From: Sulfurimonas denitrificans DSM 1251
GTDB lineage: Bacteria; Campylobacterota; Campylobacteria; Campylobacterales; Sulfurimonadaceae
NCBI RefSeq assembly: GCF_000012965.1
Contig: NC_007575.1
Location: forward strand, 806,001-870,000
Direction: 5' to 3'
Length of the DNA: 64,000 nt
How positions within the stretch are numbered: the stretch's first letter is position 1; every line of letters starts with the position of its first letter. The notes under the pieces were generated by a model. The model was not told where the DNA came from. It saw only the letters and a program-made list of their open reading frames with translations, and ran no database searches. This document shows, piece after piece, positions 24,401 through 56,313 of this stretch. Made by a program: the position numbers and the translations under genes.

Positions 24401-24477
24401 GGGTTCTTAGCTCAGTTGGTTAGAGCCCTCCGCTCATAACGGAGTGGTCGAGTGTTCGAGTCACTCAGAACCCACCA
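24401..24477 (+). tRNA. tRNA with CAT anticodon (Met or lysidine-Ile); integration site
   Basis: The acceptor GGGTTCT pairs with AGAACCC and CCA is encoded. The anticodon stem-loop CTCCG-CTCATAA-CGGAG has CAT. It could be elongator tRNA-Met or tRNA-Ile2; without the full tRNA set I lean to Met. The gene is intact, because the integrated element begins inside it and supplies an identical 3' end. Confidence 0.9.
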
Positions 24478-24502: not shown

Positions 24503-25660
24503 TTAAATCTTTATTTTTAAAGTGTCGCTAAAAGTGTCGCTAACATTCTTAAATAAATCAATACTTGTATCTACTTTCAAATGGCTATCTTTAATAAAAC
24601 CTGCATAGTTTTTAATAATCATCTCTGGCGAAGTATGTCCAACTATAGCAGCAATCTCCATAATCTTAAATTTACCGCTATTTAACATTGCAGTAATAAA
24701 AGTATGTCTTGTGCTATATAGTTTTCTATATTCAATACCACAATCCTCTACAAGTTGATGCCATCTTCTTTTAAAGAAACTTGCATCTTTTATAAAGACT
24801 CCATCATGTTCAAACAGATAAAGAGATTTACTTAACTTTCCTTGACTCTCAATAAATGGTTTAACAGCTTCAAACATCGGTATATCTCTAATGCTCCCGA
24901 TTGTTTTAGGTGTAGTTATACGACCTTTAGAGATAGATCTTTTGATAGTTATTCTATCGTTTAAGATGTCTTGATGCATTAAACCGAGTATTTCACCACT
25001 CCTCATGCCTGTATGCAAAGCAATACCTAGATAGTTGCGGAACATTCCATGTGATTTCTCTAACAATAACGATACTTCATCTGTTGAGAAAGGATGAATA
25101 AGCTCTTTTTCAGAGGCTTTGAACGTAATATCCGTTGCAACATTTTTATTAACAATTTCAGCGTCCATAGCAATGTCTATTACACTTTTTATACAAGACA
25201 AGTAATCTTTTTTTGTTCTATCTTTAATATTATCAAATGATGATAGATACTCTTTTACCATTAGTCTTGTAATCTTATTGATATCAAAATCTTTAAAAAA
25301 GTCATTTACCTTTCTATAGACATATATTCTGTTATGAAAACTTTTGTCTTCTTCATGTAACTTTAAATATTTTTCATAAAAGTATGAAAATTTTTTAGAA
25401 ACATTAGTTTTAATATTGAGCTCTTCTTGCTTACGTGCTATCCATGGAGACAGATATTGAGTTTGCATATATTTTAAAGTTTTTTCAGTCTTTAAAACTT
25501 TTGTGCTCTCTTCAAATTTTTTAACAACGCTGTTTTCAAAATACACATAGTACATTACATACCAATATTTTCTATTTTCTCTATTTATTATAGAGACTTT
25601 TATATTCTGCACTTTTTCTCCTTTTTTAAAGGATTTTGTGCCATTTGTAATTAACAGCAA
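24503..25660 (-). CDS. Tyrosine recombinase (element integrase)
   Basis: 385 aa phage-type integrase. It has an N-terminal arm-binding region, a core-binding SAM-like domain (about 95-180) and a catalytic domain (about 190-370). Catalytic residues: Arg in HTGMRSGEILG (about 218), His-x-x-Arg region in YSTRHTFITAML (about 320), His in VGHTSPE and nucleophile Tyr in KNYAGF (about 351). It lies 22 bp from attL, transcribed towards it, the usual place for an int gene. The last codons overlap a 25-bp direct repeat shared with the right end of the element. Confidence 0.93.
   Translation of the reverse strand: MLLITNGTKSFKKGEKVQNIKVSIINRENRKYWYVMYYVYFENSVVKKFEESTKVLKTEKTLKYMQTQYLSPWIARKQEELNIKTNVSKKFSYFYEKYLKLHEEDKSFHNRIYVYRKVNDFFKDFDINKITRLMVKEYLSSFDNIKDRTKKDYLSCIKSVIDIAMDAEIVNKNVATDITFKASEKELIHPFSTDEVSLLLEKSHGMFRNYLGIALHTGMRSGEILGLMHQDILNDRITIKRSISKGRITTPKTIGSIRDIPMFEAVKPFIESQGKLSKSLYLFEHDGVFIKDASFFKRRWHQLVEDCGIEYRKLYSTRHTFITAMLNSGKFKIMEIAAIVGHTSPEMIIKNYAGFIKDSHLKVDTSIDLFKNVSDTFSDTLKIKI
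24519..24543 (+). repeat. 25-bp direct repeat, left end (candidate Int arm sites)
   Basis: Two tandem copies of AGTGTCGCTAAA-type sequence. The same 25 bp occur at 40701-40725 in the same orientation. It lies 38 bp inside attL and overlaps the end of int, where it encodes SDTFSDTL. Confidence 0.75.
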
Positions 25661-29233: not shown

Positions 29234-29260
29234 TTAAATCCTTTAAATTGTTTTACTTAC

Positions 29261-29275
29261 CTAATTCAAATTTCT
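29261..29275 (-). promoter_or_regulatory. Element leader motif, copy a
   Basis: AGAAATTTGAATTAG on the minus strand, 28-42 nt upstream of the HTH gene start at 29233. Confidence 0.65.
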
Positions 29276-29276
29276 T

Positions 29277-29513
29277 TTAAATCATGTGTCCTTTTTTAGC
29301 AACTCCTGTTTTTCTTTCTTTAAGTTGCTTAATTGCTTGATTGCATCTTAAAATATTAAATATCCAGCCTGTAATCATAAATCCAATTGCCAGCGTTCCG
29401 ATTGTCGAAACTAGAAGTGGATTATTTTGCGGTATGATGATAAATATCTCTATAATGAGCAAGAAAATGCCGACTGATGTAAAAACCCATGTAGGAATTT
29501 TTAAATTTTTCAT
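29277..29513 (-). CDS. Small two-TM membrane protein
   Basis: 78 aa with two hydrophobic helices (about 9-28 and 35-54) and a basic tail (KQLKERKTGVAKKG). No family recognised. Its leader has the 15-bp element motif (29541-29555), so it belongs to the same presumptive regulon as traG and the small regulator. A role in transfer, exclusion or immunity is possible but unproven. Confidence 0.6.
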   Translation of the reverse strand: MKNLKIPTWVFTSVGIFLLIIEIFIIIPQNNPLLVSTIGTLAIGFMITGWIFNILRCNQAIKQLKERKTGVAKKGHMI

Positions 29514-29540
29514 GTTGTAGTGTCCTTTTGTTTTATTTAC

Positions 29541-29555
29541 CTAATTCAAATTTCT
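29541..29555 (-). promoter_or_regulatory. Element leader motif, copy b
   Basis: AGAAATTTGAATTAG on the minus strand, 28-42 nt upstream of the gene starting at 29513. The flanking GTAAATAAAAC also resembles copy a. Confidence 0.65.
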
Positions 29556-29608
29556 ATTTTAGTTTTTAGTTTTTTCGATTGTTGATATTTCTGTGATATA
29601 CTTCTTTT

Positions 29609-29687
29609 GCTAATACAATTTCTTCATGTGAACTATGGAGTGACAAGACTAGGTCAAGGGATTAATTACCCCTTGACCTTTTTTTTT
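29609..29687 (+). ncRNA. Candidate small antisense-type RNA (type I antitoxin-like)
   Basis: A possible -10 (TATACT, 29597-29602) precedes a roughly 79-nt stretch that ends in a strong rho-independent terminator. Two of its segments are complementary to the downstream peptide mRNA: GCTAATACAA (29609-29618) to the peptide codons at 29731-29740, and ATGTGAACT (29626-29634) plus TGGAG to the leader at 29691-29704. This is the layout of an RNA antitoxin. The RNA is predicted from sequence only. Confidence 0.45.
29651..29687 (+). terminator. Strong rho-independent terminator
   Basis: A 10-bp stem AGGTCAAGGG / CCCTTGACCT (29651-29660 and 29670-29679) with a 9-nt loop is followed by a run of eight T (29680-29687) on the plus strand. 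It closes the candidate small RNA. Confidence 0.85.
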
Positions 29688-29720
29688 GTCCTCCAAGTTC
29701 ACATTTTGAAGGGGTTCTTT

Positions 29721-29780
29721 ATGGATAAGCTTGTATTAGCATTGCTGCTTATGTGCATTTTTGCACCGTTACTTAGGTAA
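29721..29780 (+). CDS. 19-aa hydrophobic peptide (candidate type I toxin)
   Basis: The frame encodes MDKLVLALLLMCIFAPLLR. AAGGGG lies at 29709-29714, 6 nt before the ATG. The length and composition (one short hydrophobic helix with charged ends) are those of type I toxin peptides such as the Ibs family of Escherichia coli. The 3' end of the frame forms a hairpin (29767-29782) and a second one follows at 29784-29803. The upstream candidate RNA is complementary to its ribosome-binding leader and codons 4-7. A leader peptide is the main alternative. Confidence 0.5.
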   Translation: MDKLVLALLLMCIFAPLLR

Positions 29781-29783
29781 CGC

Positions 29784-29803
29784 CAAGGGGTTTACGCCCC
29801 TTG
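29784..29803 (+). other. Hairpin after the small peptide gene
   Basis: CAAGGGG-TTTACG-CCCCTTG, a 7-bp stem 3 bp after the peptide stop codon, with no T-run. It may stabilise the 3' end of the mRNA. The CAAGGG/CCCTTG arms also resemble those of the terminator at 29651. Confidence 0.5.
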
Positions 29804-29824
29804 CCCCCGAAAACTTCTATCTTC

Positions 29825-29846
29825 AAAATTTCCCGTGGGAAATTTT
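29825..29846. repeat. Palindrome at the traG 3' end
   Basis: AAAATTTCCC-GT-GGGAAATTTT, a perfect 10-bp stem overlapping the traG stop codon. It shares a 17-bp core with the palindrome at 25930-25943. It could terminate the leftward transfer operon. Confidence 0.55.
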
Positions 29847-32800
29847 ATTGTTCATTTTGCTTCATCTCTGCAACTGCTTCAGTAATAGTTTTGACACTTT
29901 TCTCTGCTTTTTGCACTTTATCCTGCATAACTTTATTTTCTCTATTTTGTACAGCTTGTTCTAACTGTCTCTCTGCAGCGTTATTTATCTCATCTCTCTC
30001 TGGATGCATTTTCTCCCAAGTCAGCATGTCTTTTAATTCTTGTGTAGAAAAATTCTCAACTTTTTCGGTATTTATTCTAGTGTTCGCCGCAGAGCTTGCT
30101 GGATTCTTTGTGCCGATAAGCCCATCCTGTAGTGCTTTATCATGTGCTGTTTCAATCCTTGCATAGTCTTTATTTTCAATCGTGTTAATCATTTTGTCAA
30201 ATTCGCCCTCAAGTCCTATAGCTTTTGCTGTGCTATCTATCATCGGATTTTGCTTCAAAGTGCCCCAGATTCCCAGCTCATCTTTAGCATGATAGAAGTT
30301 TTCTTGTATCTTATCTTTACCGCCATCAATTTCATCTTTGGTATTTACTTTGTTTTGTTTCGTGAAGTCCTGCATATCGCCGCTTGCTTCTGCTCGTTTT
30401 TCTTCATGAGCTTGCTGATATCTCTTCGTTATACTGTCGTTGATATTTGCCATGTCAGAGTTGTTTTTTGGCACATTGCTTGTGTTTTTGATAATATCTG
30501 GAACTATGGCTTCAACTCTCTCTTCAACATTGGTTGATTGAGCTTTGTAATGCTCTCTTTGTTGTTTAAATTTGTCTTCAGCTTCGCCGATAACATCTTT
30601 AGCCTTTTGAACTCCACTCATATCTAAGTTGAGATTAGTACCGCTAGCTGCCTCAAAAGCTTTTCTCGTTTCGTCAATATGCATTCCGCCTCGCATTTGT
30701 TCTATTGCAATTTTACCTGCGTCTAATAAATCTATTTTTGAAAGTTCAGGGCTATTATTGATATAGTTATTTAGAGCATCAGGAAGTAGATCATGTGTCA
30801 TCGATAAACCTTGACGTGATGTAATATTATGAAGCTTTGTAATTGATTCTGAATCGCTCCAAGATTTAACATAATTATCAGCTTTTGTAAGAATATCAGA
30901 ATCATTAAATCCGCCTGTTTTTTGAGCTTGTTTTGCAAGTCCAAGAGATAAACTCTCGTTTTCATTGATAGAGCTTGTAAGATTTTTTGAGAAAGTGTCA
31001 CCAAATGTTTTAGCGTCATCTCCAGTTATGGTTGTGCTAAAATCTTTCGAATCAGAACTTTTACCAGTTACTGTATAGCCTATGGTTGCGTTACCCTTCA
31101 CGGACATACCAGTAAACAGAGAAACACCATCAGGGGAGCCAATAGTAAGATTTGCATTTGCTCCAGCGTTTGCGTTATGATCACTTGAAAAATTAAATTT
31201 ATGCCCGTTACTCGTCATCTGTTTTAATGTGTTTGTGATACCTTCTTGCGTAACTTTAGTGAGAGCCTCCCCAGTTGCATGACCCCATGTGTTTGTATCT
31301 GAGAATGTATTTGTATCAATATTCGTGCCTCCTGCAGTTGAGCCGTTCGCCAAGCTGTGAGCAAAGCTTGAGTTAAATGCAGCGCTATTTGAAGCAAGTT
31401 CCTGAAGAGTTTTGCCTGTGCTAGCAGATATGTCATTAACTAAACCTGCGCTGATGGTTGTATCTTTAACTGATGTGATTTTTGTACCATGTGCATCAGC
31501 AGTGATTTGACCAAGTCCAGCAGAATCAGATGTTTGTGTTCCAATGCCTTGAGCATTTGTTGTTTTAGTTCTGAGAGAACCATCATTAGCAACATGTGAG
31601 GCTCTCCATGAATCTTGTCCGAGATAATCATGCGTTCCATGCATATCTGTAGCGCTAAACTTGCCTAAAGAGCTGTTTCCAACACTTATATTTCCGCTTG
31701 CAGTTTGTGCAGCGGCAGATGATGCTGAACTATTTGCAACTGCGCCTGCTCCGCTAAAGAAGCTAACAAATCCTTGTTCTGATTTTTTAGCTATTGAGTA
31801 CGCAAGAACTGGAATCATCGTGCCAACATAGCCAATGAGAGCTATTAGAAGTGCTAAGTCTTCATGCATTTTATGAGTTCTAAAAAAAGTGAGACCGCCA
31901 TCAACTTGTGGCCAAATCAATTGAGACTCGATTGTAATAAATGTCATAGCATTTAATATTATAGCAAGCGGCGTCCAAAGTATCATTGCAAACAATAGTG
32001 TAAATCCCATTTTAATATGCCCTAAATCGCCGTAAATAACGGAGAGCAGTACAAGAAGTATAAAAATACCAAGCACAAGAACAGTTAAAATTGCCTTGTA
32101 AAGTGGCAGGTTTTTTTGAGCCATCTTTCCCATAGTCATTAATGTTTGTTGTTGATTTGCCTCTGCTGCCGCACTTGCATATGCTAGAGCTTGAACATCT
32201 CCACCTGCTGCAAGTGCAGTAGCTTTTATGCCATCTTTTGTCATATTTATTAATGTTTGTTGCATGAGATAGTCTTTTGAGTTTTTAGATGTACTAAAAA
32301 GTAATTGTGATGTTGCTGCCATTGCGCCCTGGTATTTGTCTTGTGTAATTCCCATCTCTTGAGCAAGAAGAGGTTCTAAGACGTCAAGCTGTTGTCTTAT
32401 ATCAGTGTTAACTAATAATTCCCATACATCTTCACATTGCTTATCTATTCCATTAGGATTTGCTGTACTATAATAAGGAGTGAGATATCCAGTTACTTTA
32501 AGATCTGCTTTTAATATAGTACTGAAATTTATAATATCTGCAGAAATTTCGTTCATTGCGATTGCGCTAAATATACAATTTCCCATATACTCATTAAAGG
32601 TTCTTCTCGTATGACCATCTGCAGCAATTAATGATTTTACATTCAGTGGCGCTGCCATGGTGAAACCAAGACCCACATCTGTGTAATTTAAAGAGTTTGG
32701 AGTTGCCATCGCAGACTGAAACCCACGTGCTAGGTTTCTTTCTAAGTTTGTAAATAAAGAGAAAGTTTCACCGATTCCTATAGGGACATTGTTAACAATA

Positions 32801-33126
32801 AATGTTTGATTAGTTACTTCATCTTCGATAATATAACGTTTTGTGCTTGTAGAAAAAAGTCCAATTATTAAAGTTATGGTAAATAAATATTTACCCATCG
32901 TAACAGCCATATCAGAACTGCTAGCACCGCTTACGGTATTTTTTATCATCAATAAAAACCCACCGATGGCAACAGCTGATTTAAAAATATAGTTGTCTTG
33001 CGATAGAATTGTTACAGCTTGTAAGACACGGTAAAATAGTTCGCCGTATCCCCATGTGTAAATTGATGATTCTGCAGCAAATAGACTTACGGAAAATAAG
33101 ATAAAAAATAAAAACAATTTTTGCAT
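29845..33126 (-). CDS. TraG-like mating-pair stabilisation protein
   Basis: 1093 aa. A signal peptide (1-17) is followed by YTWGYGELFYRVLQAVTIL, the opening of the TraG_N domain of F-type conjugation systems. Transmembrane helices lie near 48-62, 84-102, 345-368, 378-398 and 422-445. After residue 460 there is a very long soluble region rich in Ala, Ser, Asn and Thr, ending in charged coiled-coil segments. F TraG proteins stabilise mating pairs and mediate entry exclusion with TraS. It is the only type IV secretion component in the element. Its leader has the 15-bp motif and GAGGAG. Confidence 0.75.
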   Translation of the reverse strand: MQKLFLFFILFSVSLFAAESSIYTWGYGELFYRVLQAVTILSQDNYIFKSAVAIGGFLLMIKNTVSGASSSDMAVTMGKYLFTITLIIGLFSTSTKRYIIEDEVTNQTFIVNNVPIGIGETFSLFTNLERNLARGFQSAMATPNSLNYTDVGLGFTMAAPLNVKSLIAADGHTRRTFNEYMGNCIFSAIAMNEISADIINFSTILKADLKVTGYLTPYYSTANPNGIDKQCEDVWELLVNTDIRQQLDVLEPLLAQEMGITQDKYQGAMAATSQLLFSTSKNSKDYLMQQTLINMTKDGIKATALAAGGDVQALAYASAAAEANQQQTLMTMGKMAQKNLPLYKAILTVLVLGIFILLVLLSVIYGDLGHIKMGFTLLFAMILWTPLAIILNAMTFITIESQLIWPQVDGGLTFFRTHKMHEDLALLIALIGYVGTMIPVLAYSIAKKSEQGFVSFFSGAGAVANSSASSAAAQTASGNISVGNSSLGKFSATDMHGTHDYLGQDSWRASHVANDGSLRTKTTNAQGIGTQTSDSAGLGQITADAHGTKITSVKDTTISAGLVNDISASTGKTLQELASNSAAFNSSFAHSLANGSTAGGTNIDTNTFSDTNTWGHATGEALTKVTQEGITNTLKQMTSNGHKFNFSSDHNANAGANANLTIGSPDGVSLFTGMSVKGNATIGYTVTGKSSDSKDFSTTITGDDAKTFGDTFSKNLTSSINENESLSLGLAKQAQKTGGFNDSDILTKADNYVKSWSDSESITKLHNITSRQGLSMTHDLLPDALNNYINNSPELSKIDLLDAGKIAIEQMRGGMHIDETRKAFEAASGTNLNLDMSGVQKAKDVIGEAEDKFKQQREHYKAQSTNVEERVEAIVPDIIKNTSNVPKNNSDMANINDSITKRYQQAHEEKRAEASGDMQDFTKQNKVNTKDEIDGGKDKIQENFYHAKDELGIWGTLKQNPMIDSTAKAIGLEGEFDKMINTIENKDYARIETAHDKALQDGLIGTKNPASSAANTRINTEKVENFSTQELKDMLTWEKMHPERDEINNAAERQLEQAVQNRENKVMQDKVQKAEKSVKTITEAVAEMKQNEQ

Positions 33127-33142: not shown

Positions 33143-33157
33143 CTAATTCAAATTTCT
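33143..33157 (-). promoter_or_regulatory. Element leader motif, copy c
   Basis: AGAAATTTGAATTAG on the minus strand, 17-31 nt upstream of the traG-like start; it overlaps the last base pairs of the relaxase gene. Confidence 0.65.
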
Positions 33158-36100
33158 ACATTCCCATACCTGAGCTTCTTATCTGCTCTTTTTCAACATT
33201 TATATCTTCCAATGCTTTTTCTTGCAGAGCTGCATCTTTAACTTTTTGATTATCTTCGTTTTGTTGTTCATCTTTTTGAGTTTGCATTTTAAAGTCGTCA
33301 AAAAGTGGTTCATCGGTGTGCTGCATTGATTTAAAAAGCTCAAGCTTCATTTCTAGCCTTTGTTGAATATCACTATCTAAATTGCCATTTTTTAGCTCTA
33401 TCTCTGCAGTTCTAAAATTTCCATTTTCTATTAAATTTTCTATTTTTACTTCACGGGCAGCCTCTAGCTCTTCATTTAAAAATTTGCTCTCTAATTTAAA
33501 CTCTTTTTGCAGTTCTAGTTCTACGCTCTCAAATCGTGCTTCAATTGCAGCATTTATTTTTAATTCTACGCCGCGCATATCATGCTCTTCAACTTGTTCT
33601 ACTAGATTCATAGCTCTAAATACATCATTTTGAGCAACTGCATTTTCAATTTCATCAATTTTAGCTTCGTACTCTCTTGTTTGCTCCAGCTGCTCTTTGA
33701 AACCATCTACAAAACCTATCATCTTTGAATTTCTATTTTCTAATTCTCTATCATTAGTACCGTCGTGTTTCTCCATGAGCTTATCAAACTGCTTTTCAAC
33801 TATTAAATCTGCCATAGCTCTATATTTTTCATCTTGATAGCTTAATCCTTGACTTTTTAATTCATTTGCCATGCCAATGGGAGTGTCTAGCCCATATTTT
33901 TTAATATTTTCCTCGAACTGTAGATGCGTATGCTCTTTTACCATTACCTCAAGGTAATCTTTGCTTTTTATATCTAATGCAGTGGCATACAAATCTATCT
34001 TTATCTGTTTTTCAACTAAACTATCCTGTGGAAACTCTTTTTCATGTTTTAGGTCCAGCAGCTCAAGAGTGTCTATATCTTTCTTAAAAGCAGAGAACAT
34101 CTCTGCTCTCGTTAAGTCTCTAAAATAATTTTCTTGCTGCTCGCTTGAAAGTTTTGAGGCATCTACGCTGAGCAAATGCTCATTTGGATTCAGATTTGCA
34201 GAGTTGAAAGCAGTACCATTATCATTTATATATTTTCCGACTTCAAGTGTATTCATTTTGCTAAAATCAACATCTTCATATAATTTGTTTGCTATTTTTT
34301 GAGCAAAATTAATCTGTTTATCGCTTACTTGTGGTTTAGCCAGTTTGAAATTATCTAAATTGTCTTGCTTCCATTCTTTAAGATTTATATTGCCAAATCC
34401 TCTAGCTTCATCACTTTTTTTAAAATTTATAATCTGCTGTTTTGTTTCTATCTTCTCAACACTAAACTCTTTTAACAGTTCTTCCCTTTTAAACCCTGCA
34501 TTTTCTAAAGCACTTACAGATACTTGCTGCTGTTTGTCAGCAACATGACTGATTTTTTCTATCTTATCTTTTTGTTCTGGAGTGAATTCAGGATTTTGGA
34601 TTGCTTTTGTTAAAAGAGAATCAAACTTCACTCCATTATCTCCATGCTCTAGCCTGATACCGTCCATCTCTACTATTTTTTCATCTTTTGAAAAACAGTT
34701 TGTATCAATCCCATATTTTTTTAAAGAAGATTCTGTAATATCATCATAAGCTTTTATTTTGCCTCTAAGTCCGTCAAGTCGCTCTATATTTGTTTTTTTC
34801 TCCTCTTTAGATACTTCATTTGATTTTGAAGCTTGTTGAAAGTACTTAATACGAGCTTCAACAACATCAACAAGAGCTTTTCTTGTATCGTTTGCAAAAA
34901 TCATTTTATCAAGCTTATAGTGATTGTTTAGTGTGATACCATCTATCCTTTTTTGCGGTATTTCAAATGGCTTATCGACTCTGTTATTTAGGTGTTCAAA
35001 TCTATTATAAAGCTCTTTTGAAATTCGTGGTTCATTTTCAGTATTCCACTCTTTTATTTTTTCTTTATTTGCAGTAAACCATTTATTTATTGTGATATCA
35101 TCCTTGAGATGTTTTGAAGATAGTTCAAGCCCTTTATCAGTTGCTATTTTATCGGCAAGAAAGAGTTTTTGATTCTCATCTAAAAATGCTTTAAATTGTT
35201 CTACGTCTTTTGGAACTTCGCCTAGACTATATTTTTCTGATAGCTCTAGAGAATCTTTGTAATATTTTGTAAAAGTATCTGCATATCTATTTTTTGCATT
35301 AGTTATAAACTCATTATATTTATCAGAATGCTCTTCAAAAAAGCCTTTAATTTTATCTGCTGAATTCAAAGCTTTTTCATTGATAGGTATTTTGTAAGCA
35401 GTTGCAATTTTTTTGATTAAATATGTATTTTGATTTGCAAATTTACTTGTAGGCATATCGCCTGTAAAACCTGCTATCTGTTTTGCCTCAGAAAAATAAG
35501 ATTTGTCTTTGTAAAATATTTCGTATCTATCTGATTTATCCATCGCAAGTTGTTTTGTATTTTCATAAAATCTCTGTTTAATTTCAAAAAGCTCATCTTT
35601 AAACATTTTAACACCATCACCGCCAACATCTTTAGTCGTGAGAATTAAATGTGCATGAGGATTGTCTGTATTTCTATGTATGGCAAACGTGTAATCAAAG
35701 TTTTTATGAAAATCTTGAGAAAATGTGTTGATGGTTTTAGTTATCACTTTTGAAAATTCGGCATTTGTCATCTTGACATTAGAGTTCGGAGAAAATACAA
35801 GTCTGCGTTCACCAGTGATATCTTGCATCATCGATTTTGCCTGAGAATCTGAAATTTCATTTCCGTTTTTGTCATATAAGACACCGCCTGAACCTTTTAC
35901 TTCATCTCTTGACATGTAGTCGATATGCTTCTGTGCTCTTAATTCTGTAGCTTCGTTAGATTCATCTTTAAAAGCACCATCACGCATAATGTAGTCTATA
36001 GCTTTAGTTGCTCTTATCGATGCTCCTTTACCGACTGTATATGCCGACTTAAAGAAGTTATCTGCTCCAGTCATTTTTACTATTGCAAAATTTGCAATTA

Positions 36101-36503
36101 CAGGTGATGTAGCAAACGATGAAGAACTTAGACTAGACGCAGAACTTGATGCTGTTGTGCTATCTGATGAAGTTTGTACTTTTGCAGATACGAGAGCTGG
36201 ACTAGTTATATCAGCAGTTGAAATATTTTTAAAAGATATATTTTGAGTAGATGATTGCTGAGAAGCGTCATTTACACTTAAAGAAGCATTCCCTGTTAAA
36301 CTACTGCTTAACTTATAGTTATCGTCAAAATTTGTTTGCGTGTCAACATTAAAATTTGTACTTGTGTTAGCAGCACGAGCTGGTGCTTGTTTAAATTTCG
36401 GAACATTTTCAAAAACAAGATCTTCATCAAGTTCATCGTCCGTGCTTCTTTTTTTTCTTTGCTTTTCTCTTATATTCCAAAGTAATAGTTCTTCTTGATT
36501 CAT
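33156..36503 (-). CDS. Conjugative relaxase
   Basis: 1115 aa. Residues 1-150 are disordered and Ser/Thr-rich. The nickase domain (about 155-360) shows candidate catalytic tyrosines in AIDYIMRD and HIDYMSRD and the metal-binding three-His motif HRNTDNPHAHLIL (about 270-282). The rest (about 400-1100) is helical and charged with long coiled-coil predictions, and no helicase motifs are seen, so it is a MobP/VirD2-style relaxase rather than MobF. It would nick the element at oriT and stay bound to the transferred strand. It is transcribed with the upstream small genes and 29 bp before traG. Confidence 0.85.
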   Translation of the reverse strand: MNQEELLLWNIREKQRKKRSTDDELDEDLVFENVPKFKQAPARAANTSTNFNVDTQTNFDDNYKLSSSLTGNASLSVNDASQQSSTQNISFKNISTADITSPALVSAKVQTSSDSTTASSSASSLSSSSFATSPVIANFAIVKMTGADNFFKSAYTVGKGASIRATKAIDYIMRDGAFKDESNEATELRAQKHIDYMSRDEVKGSGGVLYDKNGNEISDSQAKSMMQDITGERRLVFSPNSNVKMTNAEFSKVITKTINTFSQDFHKNFDYTFAIHRNTDNPHAHLILTTKDVGGDGVKMFKDELFEIKQRFYENTKQLAMDKSDRYEIFYKDKSYFSEAKQIAGFTGDMPTSKFANQNTYLIKKIATAYKIPINEKALNSADKIKGFFEEHSDKYNEFITNAKNRYADTFTKYYKDSLELSEKYSLGEVPKDVEQFKAFLDENQKLFLADKIATDKGLELSSKHLKDDITINKWFTANKEKIKEWNTENEPRISKELYNRFEHLNNRVDKPFEIPQKRIDGITLNNHYKLDKMIFANDTRKALVDVVEARIKYFQQASKSNEVSKEEKKTNIERLDGLRGKIKAYDDITESSLKKYGIDTNCFSKDEKIVEMDGIRLEHGDNGVKFDSLLTKAIQNPEFTPEQKDKIEKISHVADKQQQVSVSALENAGFKREELLKEFSVEKIETKQQIINFKKSDEARGFGNINLKEWKQDNLDNFKLAKPQVSDKQINFAQKIANKLYEDVDFSKMNTLEVGKYINDNGTAFNSANLNPNEHLLSVDASKLSSEQQENYFRDLTRAEMFSAFKKDIDTLELLDLKHEKEFPQDSLVEKQIKIDLYATALDIKSKDYLEVMVKEHTHLQFEENIKKYGLDTPIGMANELKSQGLSYQDEKYRAMADLIVEKQFDKLMEKHDGTNDRELENRNSKMIGFVDGFKEQLEQTREYEAKIDEIENAVAQNDVFRAMNLVEQVEEHDMRGVELKINAAIEARFESVELELQKEFKLESKFLNEELEAAREVKIENLIENGNFRTAEIELKNGNLDSDIQQRLEMKLELFKSMQHTDEPLFDDFKMQTQKDEQQNEDNQKVKDAALQEKALEDINVEKEQIRSSGMGM

Positions 36504-44304: not shown

Positions 44305-47118
44305 CTATGCTCTCTCAAGTCTTACCAAAGAGCACTTAGTCTCTGGACAAGATGTTTGTTGATCGTAACCATAACTTGTTACTTGGTTAGAGTTCTCTCC
44401 AAGAGCATATGGAGCAGTTCCCGCTGGGTATCTACTCTCTAAACTCTTACCACTCCAAACTCCTGAGAAGTTTTGAGGTAAAAATACTGAGTTTGTATCT
44501 ACTCTTAGAGAGTATTTACATTTAATTTTTATTTTACCCTCGCCAGTACCATAAACCCACATCATCTCTCCATCTCTGATGCCTAGTTTTGCACCAAGCT
44601 CTGGATGAACTTCACCATACATCTCACCTGAGAGTTCAGCTAAGTATTTAGACGCTCTAGTTTCAGTTCCTGTTCCCATATGCTCAACTACACGTCCAGA
44701 GACTATATTAATAGGATGATCAGCCACCCAGTTTTTAGCATTTTGTTCAGACGCATAACGAACATTTGCTCTGTAGTGATTAGGTTTATCAGCAACAGCT
44801 GGATACTTTTTAATTAAATCTGGTCTAAATGAGTGCAACGGCTCTCTATGTTTTGGAATCGGATCTGTAAACTCCCAAACAATCGTTCTAGCTCTTGCAT
44901 TTCCATAAGGAGCAAGACCTGCTTTAAGAGCGGTTGCAACCAAGATACCGCTATCATCATTTTTCCAGTTTTTACCCTCAACAGTTTTCTTTTGCTCTTC
45001 ACTTAGTGTGATACCACTGAGCGCTTCTATATTTTTAAAAGTAATCTCATCGTATCCACCTTTTACATGTGAGCCAACTGGTGCTATACCATCAGCTGCA
45101 AGTAAAGATACTCCATTTCTCTCGGTACCAAATCTAGTTCTAAATCCTAAACCACCTTGAGCAACTGGCAAGTTTACGTTATAAAGAACTGGACTTCCTG
45201 GATGATCTTTTGACCAACAAGGCCATGGCAGACCATAGTACTCTTTTGAAACTGCGCCGCTTCCCTTTAGTGAAGTAGTATCAAATAGATGCCAATTCTC
45301 AGTATGACGCTTAAGTCGCTCCGCCGTTCTACCTTGCATACCGATAGTCTTTAGCGCTTTTGCTATCTCATCAGTTGCATCTTCAGGCCATGTAAAGTTT
45401 GGACCTTTGTCCATTCCAGCAATATATTGATTATAAAAGCCCATTCTCTTTGCAAAGTCAAACAAGATTTCATGGTCAGCTCTTGCTTCATATAGAGGCT
45501 CTACAACTTTACTTCTCCACTGTGCACTTCTTCCAGTATTTACAACTGTTCCTGAAGTCTCAACTTGAGATGCCGCTGGTAATAAATATAAATTATTCTC
45601 TCTTGTAGTAATTACTGCCGCATCATTTACATAAGGGTCGATAAATACAACAAGGTCTAGCTTATCTAGTGCTTCTTTTACTTTTTGTGTTTGAGTAATA
45701 GTTGAAATACCATTTCCTATACATACAAGTGCTTTAAGAGGAGTTCCAGCATTATTTTTAGCAGTTGTTTCATCTAAAACACCTTCCATCCATAAACTTA
45801 AACTAAAGCCCTTTGACTCCATCATTTCCTTAGATTTAAAACGACCTTTTAACCAATCATAATCTACTTTCCATTGAGATGCAAAGTACTTCCATGAACC
45901 CTCAGCAAGTCCATAATATCCTGGAAGAGTATCAGAGAGACAACCCATATCTGTTGAGCCTTGAACATTGTCATGACCTCTTAAAATATTTGTTCCGCCA
46001 CCTGGTTTACCCATGTTTCCTAAAACTAACTGTAGGATTGAGCCTAGTCTTGTATTTGATGAGCCAACTGTGTGTTGAGTCCATCCTTGATTCCAAATAA
46101 GACATCCTGGCTCTGCTGTTGCAAATGCAGTTGTCGCTTGGATAAGAAGCTCTTTTGAACATCCAGTTACATCTTCAACATGTTCAGGAGTATATTCTTC
46201 ACACTCTTTGAAAATCTCTTCCATTCCATAGACTCTATTGTCAATAAAAGATTTGTCATACCACTTGTTCTCACGAATAAGTCTAATCATTCCGTACATA
46301 AACGCAATATCAGTACCTGTTCTAATACGACAATAGATATCACTCTTTGCGGCAGTTTTAGAGTATCTTGGATCAATTACGATGATTTTTGCACCGTTTT
46401 GTTCTTTTGACTTTAAAATATGTTGCATCGCAATCGGATGATTTGACGCTGGATTAGCTCCAAAAATTATAATAGCTTTTGAGTTTTGCATGTCACCTAG
46501 ATGATTTGTCATAGCTCCATAACCCCATGTATTTGCCACACCGGCAACTGTTGGACTATGTCAAATTCTAGCTTGGTGATCTATGTTGTTTGTTCCAAAC
46601 ATAGCAGCGAACTTTCTAATATAGTAAGCTTGCTCATTACTAACTTTTGCAGAACCTAAAAACTGAACAGCGTCTGCACCGTATTTTTCTCTGATGCTAA
46701 TTAGCTGATTTGAAACTTGACTCATAGCCTTATCCCATTCTAGTCTTGCCCATTTTCCATCTACTTTTACAGTTGGATATCTAAGTCTGTTTGTACCTCT
46801 AACTTTATCAATCATATCAGCACCTTTACAGCAGTGACCTCCATGACTAATTGGGTGATCATGAGCGACTTCTTGACGAACCCATACATTGTTTTGAACT
46901 TCAGCTATAACACCACAACCAACTGAGCAGTGCGTACAAATAGTCTTAATGAGTTTTGAACCAGGATAAGGATTTTTAATCTCATCCTTGGTTGCACCTC
47001 TTAAGACGTTATTGCTTGCAAAGGCAGAAGTTGCTGTTGTAGCTGTTGCAAGAGAAGCCATTTTTAAAAAACTTCTTCTTCCAAAGCTTTTAAGCGTTTG
47101 CATTTTATCTTCCTTCAT
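44305..47118 (-). CDS. fdhA: Formate dehydrogenase catalytic subunit, selenoprotein with in-frame TGA
   Basis: One 937-aa selenoprotein, not a broken gene. The frame crosses a TGA at 46561-46563 (residue 186) in the context DHQARI-U-HSPTVAGVANTWG, the known selenocysteine site of FdhA. The N-terminus has a twin-arginine signal (GRRSFLKM, then an Ala-rich stretch ending ATSAFA) and the 4Fe-4S motif CTHCSVGCGV near residue 61. The molybdopterin-binding regions follow (IFGANPASNHPIAMQHI, LVLGNMGKPGGG) with a C-terminal molydopterin-dinucleotide-binding domain. It oxidises formate in the periplasm. Translation needs SelABCD, all encoded nearby. Confidence 0.95.
46533..46563 (-). other. SECIS-type element of fdhA
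   Basis: Starting 13 nt after the UGA, the message forms TTGCC-GGTGT-GGCAA: a 5-bp stem with a loop beginning GGU, the feature recognised by SelB in bacterial SECIS hairpins. Spacing from the UGA agrees with fdhF-type elements. Confidence 0.75.
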
Positions 47119-56214: not shown

Positions 56215-56313
56215 TGGTGAGAGAGCGAAGGAATCGAACCTCCCGAGGTTTTGTCAGCAAAACCTCCAATCAGGTTTGAAGTCTGCGGTGTTCACCAGAA
56301 TCACATGCCCCCC
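56215..56313 (-). tRNA. selC: tRNA-Sec (TCA)
   Basis: On the minus strand the anticodon loop is ACTTCAAA with TCA, between CAG and CTG arms. There is a very long variable arm (GAGGTTTT-GCTGAC-AAAACCTC), a T-arm GGAGG-TTCGATT-CCTTC and an encoded CCA. The 5' run of six G pairs with the CTCTCT side largely by G-T wobble, so the acceptor stem is weak and its exact 5' end is uncertain by a base. The 99-nt length is typical. It lies between selD and selA, on the opposite strand. Confidence 0.92.

Follow-up and report, generated by a model that had tools for sequence, protein, structure and literature searches.

We analysed a window of 64,000 nt from contig NC_007575.1, and all coordinates given here are positions in that window. 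Its plus strand carries what is probably a self-contained, RNA-regulated toxin–antitoxin module, type I-like in its working and laid out like a type III (ToxIN) system. The locus itself, a peptide frame with a complementary leader, is real and lies well outside what chance would produce: promoter, pairing, terminator and 19-codon open reading frame (ORF) are all preserved in 59 aligned full-length homologues, which removes doubt over it. Direct reading of 29597-29803 matched the earlier description of the locus. The three complementarities reported there between the leader and the peptide mRNA region were all exact, and the first can be lengthened to 11 nt (29608-29618 with 29731-29741), making it the longest of the set; they are nested and so form one continuous structure. 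The predicted fold of 29597-29803 had an energy of -85.9 kcal/mol, compared to -44.4 +/- 3.9 kcal/mol for 200 dinucleotide shuffles (z = -10.7). An Rfam search of the whole window at the gathering threshold returned tRNAs only and no RNA family at the locus.

Organization of the locus

All parts of the locus lie on the plus strand. The only conserved promoter is marked by a -10 box (TATACT, 29597-29602), from the position of which transcription is predicted to start at approximately G29609. The predicted leader RNA of ~79 nt (29609-29687) is the candidate antitoxin, as suggested by the conservation of promoter and terminator and by the existence of leader-only copies. Direct repeats were looked for within the leader and none were found. 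Its unpaired 5' end (29609-29618), referred to below as the address, is complementary to codons 4–7 of the ORF (29731-29740). A second antisense arm (29626-29634) is the exact complement of 29696-29704, just upstream of the Shine-Dalgarno (SD) sequence, and a clamp (GGAG-GACA, 29637-29645) pairs with 29687-29694 (TGTC-CTCC). The intrinsic terminator (29651-29687) consists of a stem (29651-29660/29670-29679) with a palindromic apical loop (TAATTA, 29663-29668) and a run of nine T (T9, 29679-29687).

The SD (AAGGGG, 29709-29714) precedes the ORF (29721-29780), the 19 codons of which encode the predicted toxin peptide MDKLVLALLLMCIFAPLLR and are followed by a TAA stop. Codons 2–4 pair with codons 9–11 in an ORF hairpin (AUAAGC/GCUUAU, 29725-29752) that holds the address target in its loop, and a second ORF hairpin follows (GUGC-AUUUUU-GCAC, 29753-29766). 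Beyond the stop codon there is a 3' hairpin (CAAGGGG/CCCCTTG, 29784-29803), conserved with compensatory changes, and then an anti-SD tail (CCCCC, 29804-29808) that pairs with the SD; conservation stops at the end of this tail. The hydrophobic frame with its SD and the terminator at 29651-29687, both pointed out in the earlier note, were confirmed in the sequence and are conserved in the 59 homologues.

Distribution and decay of the family

We collected 101 distinct elements in all. They represent a family of ~100 loci that occurs in Sulfurimonas and Sulfuricurvum and extends to other families of the same order. A DNA search of 135 same-genus genomes gave matches in 31, many with two to five copies, and the genome of the window contains a second full copy and one remnant. 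Fifty-nine full-length copies were aligned from promoter to 3' tail. A scan of named records with a pattern that demands T9 returned 76 stretches, which include some of the same loci; they were carried by Sulfurimonas, Sulfuricurvum, 'Helicobacteraceae' MAGs and one 'Arcobacter' MAG. The module is also present on one phage contig, identified by its genes for portal, major head and anti-repressor proteins. With a covariance model, members were recovered from a further genus of the same bacterial family and from three more families of the order; in other families of the order, the architecture was the same and the sequence unrelated. A sample of 298 genomes from the phylum yielded no member beyond the order. 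Collections of plasmid and phage records contained no homologue, the 12 plasmid matches being weak Agrobacterium hits (E ~0.3). Intact members share the promoter, the ~79-nt leader, the T9 terminator, the 19-codon ORF, the 3' hairpin and the anti-SD tail.

To follow the two halves of the module independently, we modelled leader and toxin separately, ran both models on the genus and assigned toxin-half matches to leaders by comparing coordinates by eye. All 62 strong toxin-half matches had a leader (three of these leaders were recognizable only in the alignment), and none of the 62 was an intact ORF without one. Conversely, leaders were found at five loci that had lost the ORF (G117:C66, G127:C32, G127:C11, G132:C11 and G054:C55) and at three where it was broken (G011:C5, G096:C144 and G128:C2); the G123:C202 locus is cut immediately after the T-run. 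This asymmetric decay is suggestive, as it is the pattern that would be predicted for a toxin restrained by its leader, and the toxin-dead leaders could instead reflect ordinary decay. A toxin-less leader in genome G423 (L106:2580-2731(-)), whose address TGCTAGTATCA corresponds to the target in L108, an intact toxin-like gene elsewhere in that genome, is possibly a stand-alone antitoxin.

The peptide gene

Judged by its pattern of conservation, the 19-codon frame is a gene. The hydrophobic ORF is under purifying selection in 59/59 homologues, each of which has ATG, 18 sense codons and a stop. All three stop codons are in use among them, and Leu18 is encoded by five different codons, while residues 10–16 (L-M/L-C-I-F-A-P) are nearly invariant and the motif M.KL....L.CIFAP.L. 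is strictly conserved. Codon bias is extreme at Leu10 (CTT in 59/59) and Lys3 (AAG in 57/58) because codons 2–4 and 9–11 form the ORF hairpin. The predicted length of the peptide is 19 aa in 98 of the 101 elements and 20 aa in three. Distant members keep this length and character with a different sequence, for example MWRLLLIILLLCLLTKKLY (L093) and MGNLIVIIVLLMLIITKLY (L098). A membrane peptide is predicted, and we propose that it is toxic.

Promoter and terminator

A scan for sigma70-type promoters placed a -10 box upstream of the T-run in 101/101 elements, mostly ~83 nt upstream; the best 9-nt window for a plus-strand -10 covered 89/101. No other conserved -10 was found on either strand of the 101 elements, with no other position exceeding ~31/101, and the minus strand likewise had none (at most ~31/101 in any 9-nt window). 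As the mRNA has this single conserved promoter, it most likely arises by read-through of the terminator and carries the antisense segments in cis. The address helix starts 6–7 nt after the -10 box in 74/101 elements, which is the predicted transcription start; the address is therefore the predicted free 5' end of the RNA.

We compared the T-run between intact loci and toxin-dead loci, defined as those in which the ORF has been deleted or truncated, has a frameshift or lacks a start codon. Loci gathered with the pattern that demands T9 would bias these statistics and were omitted. The run was exactly nine T in 69/69 intact loci sampled without a T-run criterion and was altered (5, 7 or 8) in 6/14 toxin-dead loci (p = 8e-6, with related loci not fully independent). 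Because of this difference, termination seems to be important only as long as the peptide gene is intact. The terminator hairpins had a mean energy of -13.7 kcal/mol. A generic terminator scan missed the terminator of the locus, apparently because the scan does not allow a loop of this length.

In three members from a more distant family, the run is T7. Such shorter runs occur in L096, which has tandem elements at ~761 and ~1099, and in L098; in the L096 elements, address pairing is weak and the arm reaching the SD is strong, so that L096 and L098 members may show a different balance of the two locks discussed below. The apical loop of the terminator contains one of three 6-nt palindromes (TAATTA, TCATGA or TTCGAA) in 56/59 copies and TTGATC in the other three. 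These palindromes could permit loop–loop dimerization of leader RNAs and are left unexplained by the antisense model. We rejected the idea of a second toxin promoter within the TAATTA loop because other members have TCATGA or TTCGAA in its place. A three-codon upstream ORF (ATG GAG CGG TAA) was also rejected, with neither its start nor its frame being conserved.

Pairings and covariation

The address helix (29609-29618 with codons 4–7) was paired in 95.5% of alignment cells. The earlier note had suggested checking whether relatives keep the peptide and, through compensatory changes, the pairing; the outcome was strongly positive, with such changes in nine of the ten address pairs. Compensatory double changes occupied 170 cells versus 51 in shuffles (score 0.707 versus 0.213). 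These shuffles ignore relatedness, a concern answered by slide controls and by independent realizations in other families: sliding the helix by 1–3 columns collapsed pairing to <=49%, and one column sufficed to lose the signal. The energy of address duplexes was -13.7 kcal/mol for cognate and -5.5 kcal/mol for non-cognate combinations, with reversed controls near background. The corresponding values for the second arm, next to the SD, were -14.0 and -5.0 kcal/mol.

The remaining helices were similarly well kept. The clamp (GGAG-GRYA with TRYC-CTCC) was paired in 97.8% of cells, the ORF hairpin of codons 2–4 and 9–11 in 97.2% and the second ORF hairpin (29753-29766) in 97.9%, each with compensatory changes in two pairs. 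In the first of the ORF hairpins, which exposes the address target in a 16-nt loop, Glu2 (GAA) goes with Leu11 (TTG) and Asp/Asn2 (xAT) with Met11 (ATG). The SD variants GGGAGA, GGGGG and GAGGAGGGC are matched by the tails TCTCCC, CCCCC and GCCCTCC, respectively, and SD–tail pairing is long and perfect in distant families (L094, L095 and L097). On average, it was only moderately discriminating (cognate -13.9, non-cognate -10.9 and reversed-tail control -11.9 kcal/mol); since this cognate advantage is modest, the SD–tail lock rests mainly on the distant members. From these covariation patterns, the leader/mRNA structure is under strong structural selection.

Conservation and compensatory changes lend support to the idea, put forward in the earlier note, of a type I-like module in which a self-terminated complementary RNA and the peptide frame stand in tandem on one strand. 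That the upstream RNA can pair with the peptide mRNA holds, with the addition that the same segments also pair within one read-through transcript, so the pairing may act in cis, in trans or both. The pairing had been expected to bracket the ribosome-binding site and start codon; the 5' pairing goes beyond the ribosome-binding site and reaches codons 4–7.

For paralogues within one genome, the energy was -24.9 kcal/mol for cognate versus -11.8 kcal/mol for non-cognate pairs, and cross-reaction at -18 kcal/mol or better was predicted for 11 of 108 non-cognate pairs. According to these calculations, the modules of one genome would be largely orthogonal, each paralogue having its own address. Binding of the leader to a leaderless mRNA was estimated in silico at ~-19 kcal/mol.

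Genomic context

The window copy lies inside an integrative element that adjoins tRNA-Met (24401-24477) and includes an integrase (24503-25660), a DnaB-like protein, a CI-like repressor, a TraG_N protein (29845-33126) and a relaxase (33156-36503, weak Pfam score). Most other copies have unrelated, diverse housekeeping genes as neighbours. The closest homologue (L033) is 88% identical over 235 bases and has flanks unrelated to those of the window copy; the ~210-bp unit therefore moves alone or with different carriers. In S. indica NW8N, tandem copies have different addresses. The proposal that the locus is an addiction module of the element accordingly covers one instance only: the family is dispersed and mostly chromosomal. 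An origin of transfer (oriT), suggested by the adjacent relaxase, was rejected on the basis of coding and covariation signals and the unrelated contexts.

Three further features of the window were noted. Two 31-bp direct repeats, 94% identical (29248-29278 and 29528-29558), lie just upstream of the starts of an HTH_17 (AlpA-like) gene and a minus-strand 78-aa ORF and are possibly duplicated promoters or operators. A palindrome at the 3' end of the TraG_N gene (AAAATTTCCC-GT-GGGAAATTTT, 29825-29846) is likely the terminator of the transfer operon. A selenocysteine tRNA gene (56219-56313 (-)) within ~12 kb of molybdopterin oxidoreductase and FdhD genes (44305-46539 (-)) is consistent with a selenocysteine formate dehydrogenase.

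Proposed mechanism and alternative explanations

We propose the following working, in which the separate leader RNA, its action in trans and the processing of the mRNA are inferred from sequence. Transcription from the one promoter would begin at ~29609. Most polymerases would stop at T9, releasing a ~79-nt RNA whose 5' address is single-stranded, and a minority would read through into the ORF for the 19-aa membrane peptide. The read-through mRNA would be born untranslatable, having its own antisense at the 5' end and the anti-SD at the 3' end, pairings shown by covariation; it would therefore be held shut by two locks. The earlier note had foreseen the leader pairing, to which the second lock (SD with 3' tail) and the target-displaying ORF hairpin are now added. 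Nucleolytic loss of the leader, and probably also of the tail, would make this transcript translatable and expose the address target in the loop of the ORF hairpin. Abundant terminated leader RNA would then capture the processed mRNA in trans via the address, spread over the SD and start codon, and block or destroy the mRNA. If the locus were lost or leader RNA became scarcer, stored mRNA would be freed and the peptide would damage the membrane.

Of the other readings, a toxin riboregulated in cis only, with the leader as 5' lock and attenuator opened by processing or a signal and the terminated leader as a by-product, is rather unlikely and is the main rival. Every pairing can form in one transcript with one very stable fold, only one promoter is conserved, and cis pairing alone would give identical covariation; moreover, if the mRNA arises only by read-through, with its antisense already in cis, a trans RNA is not strictly needed. 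Left unexplained by such a toxin, although not decisively, are the ORF hairpin exposing the address target in the leaderless fold, the unpaired 5' address on a self-terminated RNA and the differing addresses of paralogues. The hairpin with its exposed target would make most sense in a leaderless mRNA awaiting the leader in trans. We consider it improbable that the peptide is a non-toxin, that is, a small membrane protein under tight RNA control, such as a stress or membrane-sensor peptide. The strict motif M.KL....L.CIFAP.L. would also suit a specific partner, and most copies sit among diverse housekeeping genes, but a toxin is the better fit to the patchy presence (31/135 genomes), to several diverged copies per genome, to tandem copies, to carriage by an integrative element and a phage contig, and to the loss of the ORF with the leader kept.

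A classical type I system of the AapA/IsoA kind, with an undetected opposite-strand antisense RNA and the leader as a mere 5' untranslated region, is very improbable. In its SD–tail pairing and in a full-length mRNA that would be inert, the module is very like AapA3 (PMC6733600), but minus-strand -10 boxes reach at most ~31/101 per 9-nt window, against 89/101 in the best plus-strand window and 101/101 overall, and the leader itself is a complementary RNA with its own strictly conserved terminator. The chance that the locus acts as DNA, for instance as an oriT, a recombination site or a repeat, and that its palindromes resemble RNA structure by coincidence is negligible: although the window copy lies in a mobilization region by the relaxase/TraG_N operon, the conserved ORF with synonymous variation, the G-U pairs in the helices, the promoter and terminator on one strand, and the unrelated genomic contexts speak against it, and the coding and covariation signals refute it in practice.

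Returning to the module with a leader acting as RNA antitoxin, we see even chances that it represents a new class of toxin–antitoxin organization. One nascent RNA would serve as antitoxin in its first ~79 nt and, beyond T9, also as the lock of the toxin mRNA; termination would hard-wire the ratio of antitoxin to toxin, and a freely evolving 10-nt address, present both in the RNA 5' end and in codons 4–7, would make each of ~100 related modules specific for itself in trans.

Comparison with known systems

Within ~210 bp, the family combines the layout of type III with the antisense logic of type I and would therefore be missed by computational screens for antisense or divergent RNAs. Its ~100 natural toxin/address variants allow direct tests of RNA–RNA specificity, of action in cis or in trans and of how such an RNA co-evolves with a coding sequence, and the sulfur-oxidizing Campylobacterota (Sulfurimonas and Sulfuricurvum) gain a toxin–antitoxin-like family that integrative elements and phages can carry. 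Among the open-licence papers examined, none described this layout for a system of this kind, contained the peptide motif or joined Sulfurimonas with type I toxins.

Ibs/Sib of E. coli has a peptide of ~19 aa, several paralogues per genome and discrimination by short recognition sequences; Sib overlaps the ibs gene, whereas here the complementary RNA lies upstream on the same strand. Hok/Sok has an inert full-length mRNA that is activated by processing and an antisense RNA that traps the active form (PMC6733600). Hok is larger than a 19-aa peptide. Sok is divergently overlapping (PMC4147584). A title cited in PMC4147584 gives Sib as a cis-encoded antisense RNA. TisB/IstR-1, ShoB/OhsC, Zor/Orz and DinQ/AgrB share partial complementarity of a nearby RNA to the toxin mRNA, but their antitoxins are divergently transcribed and pair in a long 5' untranslated region rather than at the start site or coding sequence (PMC4147584). 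Zor/Orz and ShoB/OhsC, the models named in the earlier note, are for this reason a poor fit.

AapA/IsoA of Helicobacter pylori comes from the same phylum and also has a short hydrophobic peptide, several paralogues, a 5'-3' interaction in the full-length mRNA, a 3' anti-SD that sequesters the SD, and activation by end processing (PMC6733600, PMC8322730). In AapA3, the 5'-3' interaction makes the full-length mRNA inert and 3' truncation activates it (PMC6733600). The SD is likewise paired with a 3' anti-SD here. The difference is that IsoA is an opposite-strand antisense RNA of ~80 nt with its own promoter and AapA peptides have ~30 aa, whereas our complementary RNA is upstream on the same strand and shares the promoter. 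A recent paper places type I antitoxins on the strand opposite the toxin, either overlapping it or close by (PMC12390103); the module has the small hydrophobic peptide on an mRNA and the RNA complementary to it (predicted as a separate RNA), with that RNA upstream on the same strand instead.

In ToxIN, as here, a single promoter is followed by the RNA antitoxin, an intrinsic terminator and then the toxin gene; read-through sets the antitoxin:toxin ratio (PMC4147584, PMC5086642), as it would in the module. Termination at the inter-gene terminator of type III toxIN is reported to be ~90% (PMC4147584), and a review of type III systems regards this terminator as unique to them (PMC5086642). The module has the order promoter, RNA, terminator and toxin but differs in its components: ToxI consists of tandem repeats and binds its toxin, an endoribonuclease, as a protein, whereas our leader has no repeats and is complementary to the toxin mRNA, and the candidate toxin is hydrophobic and 19 aa long. 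Because the arrangement is that of type III, the mode that of type I and the antitoxin not on the opposite strand, we therefore file the module as type I-like in working with a type III layout, and not within any named family.
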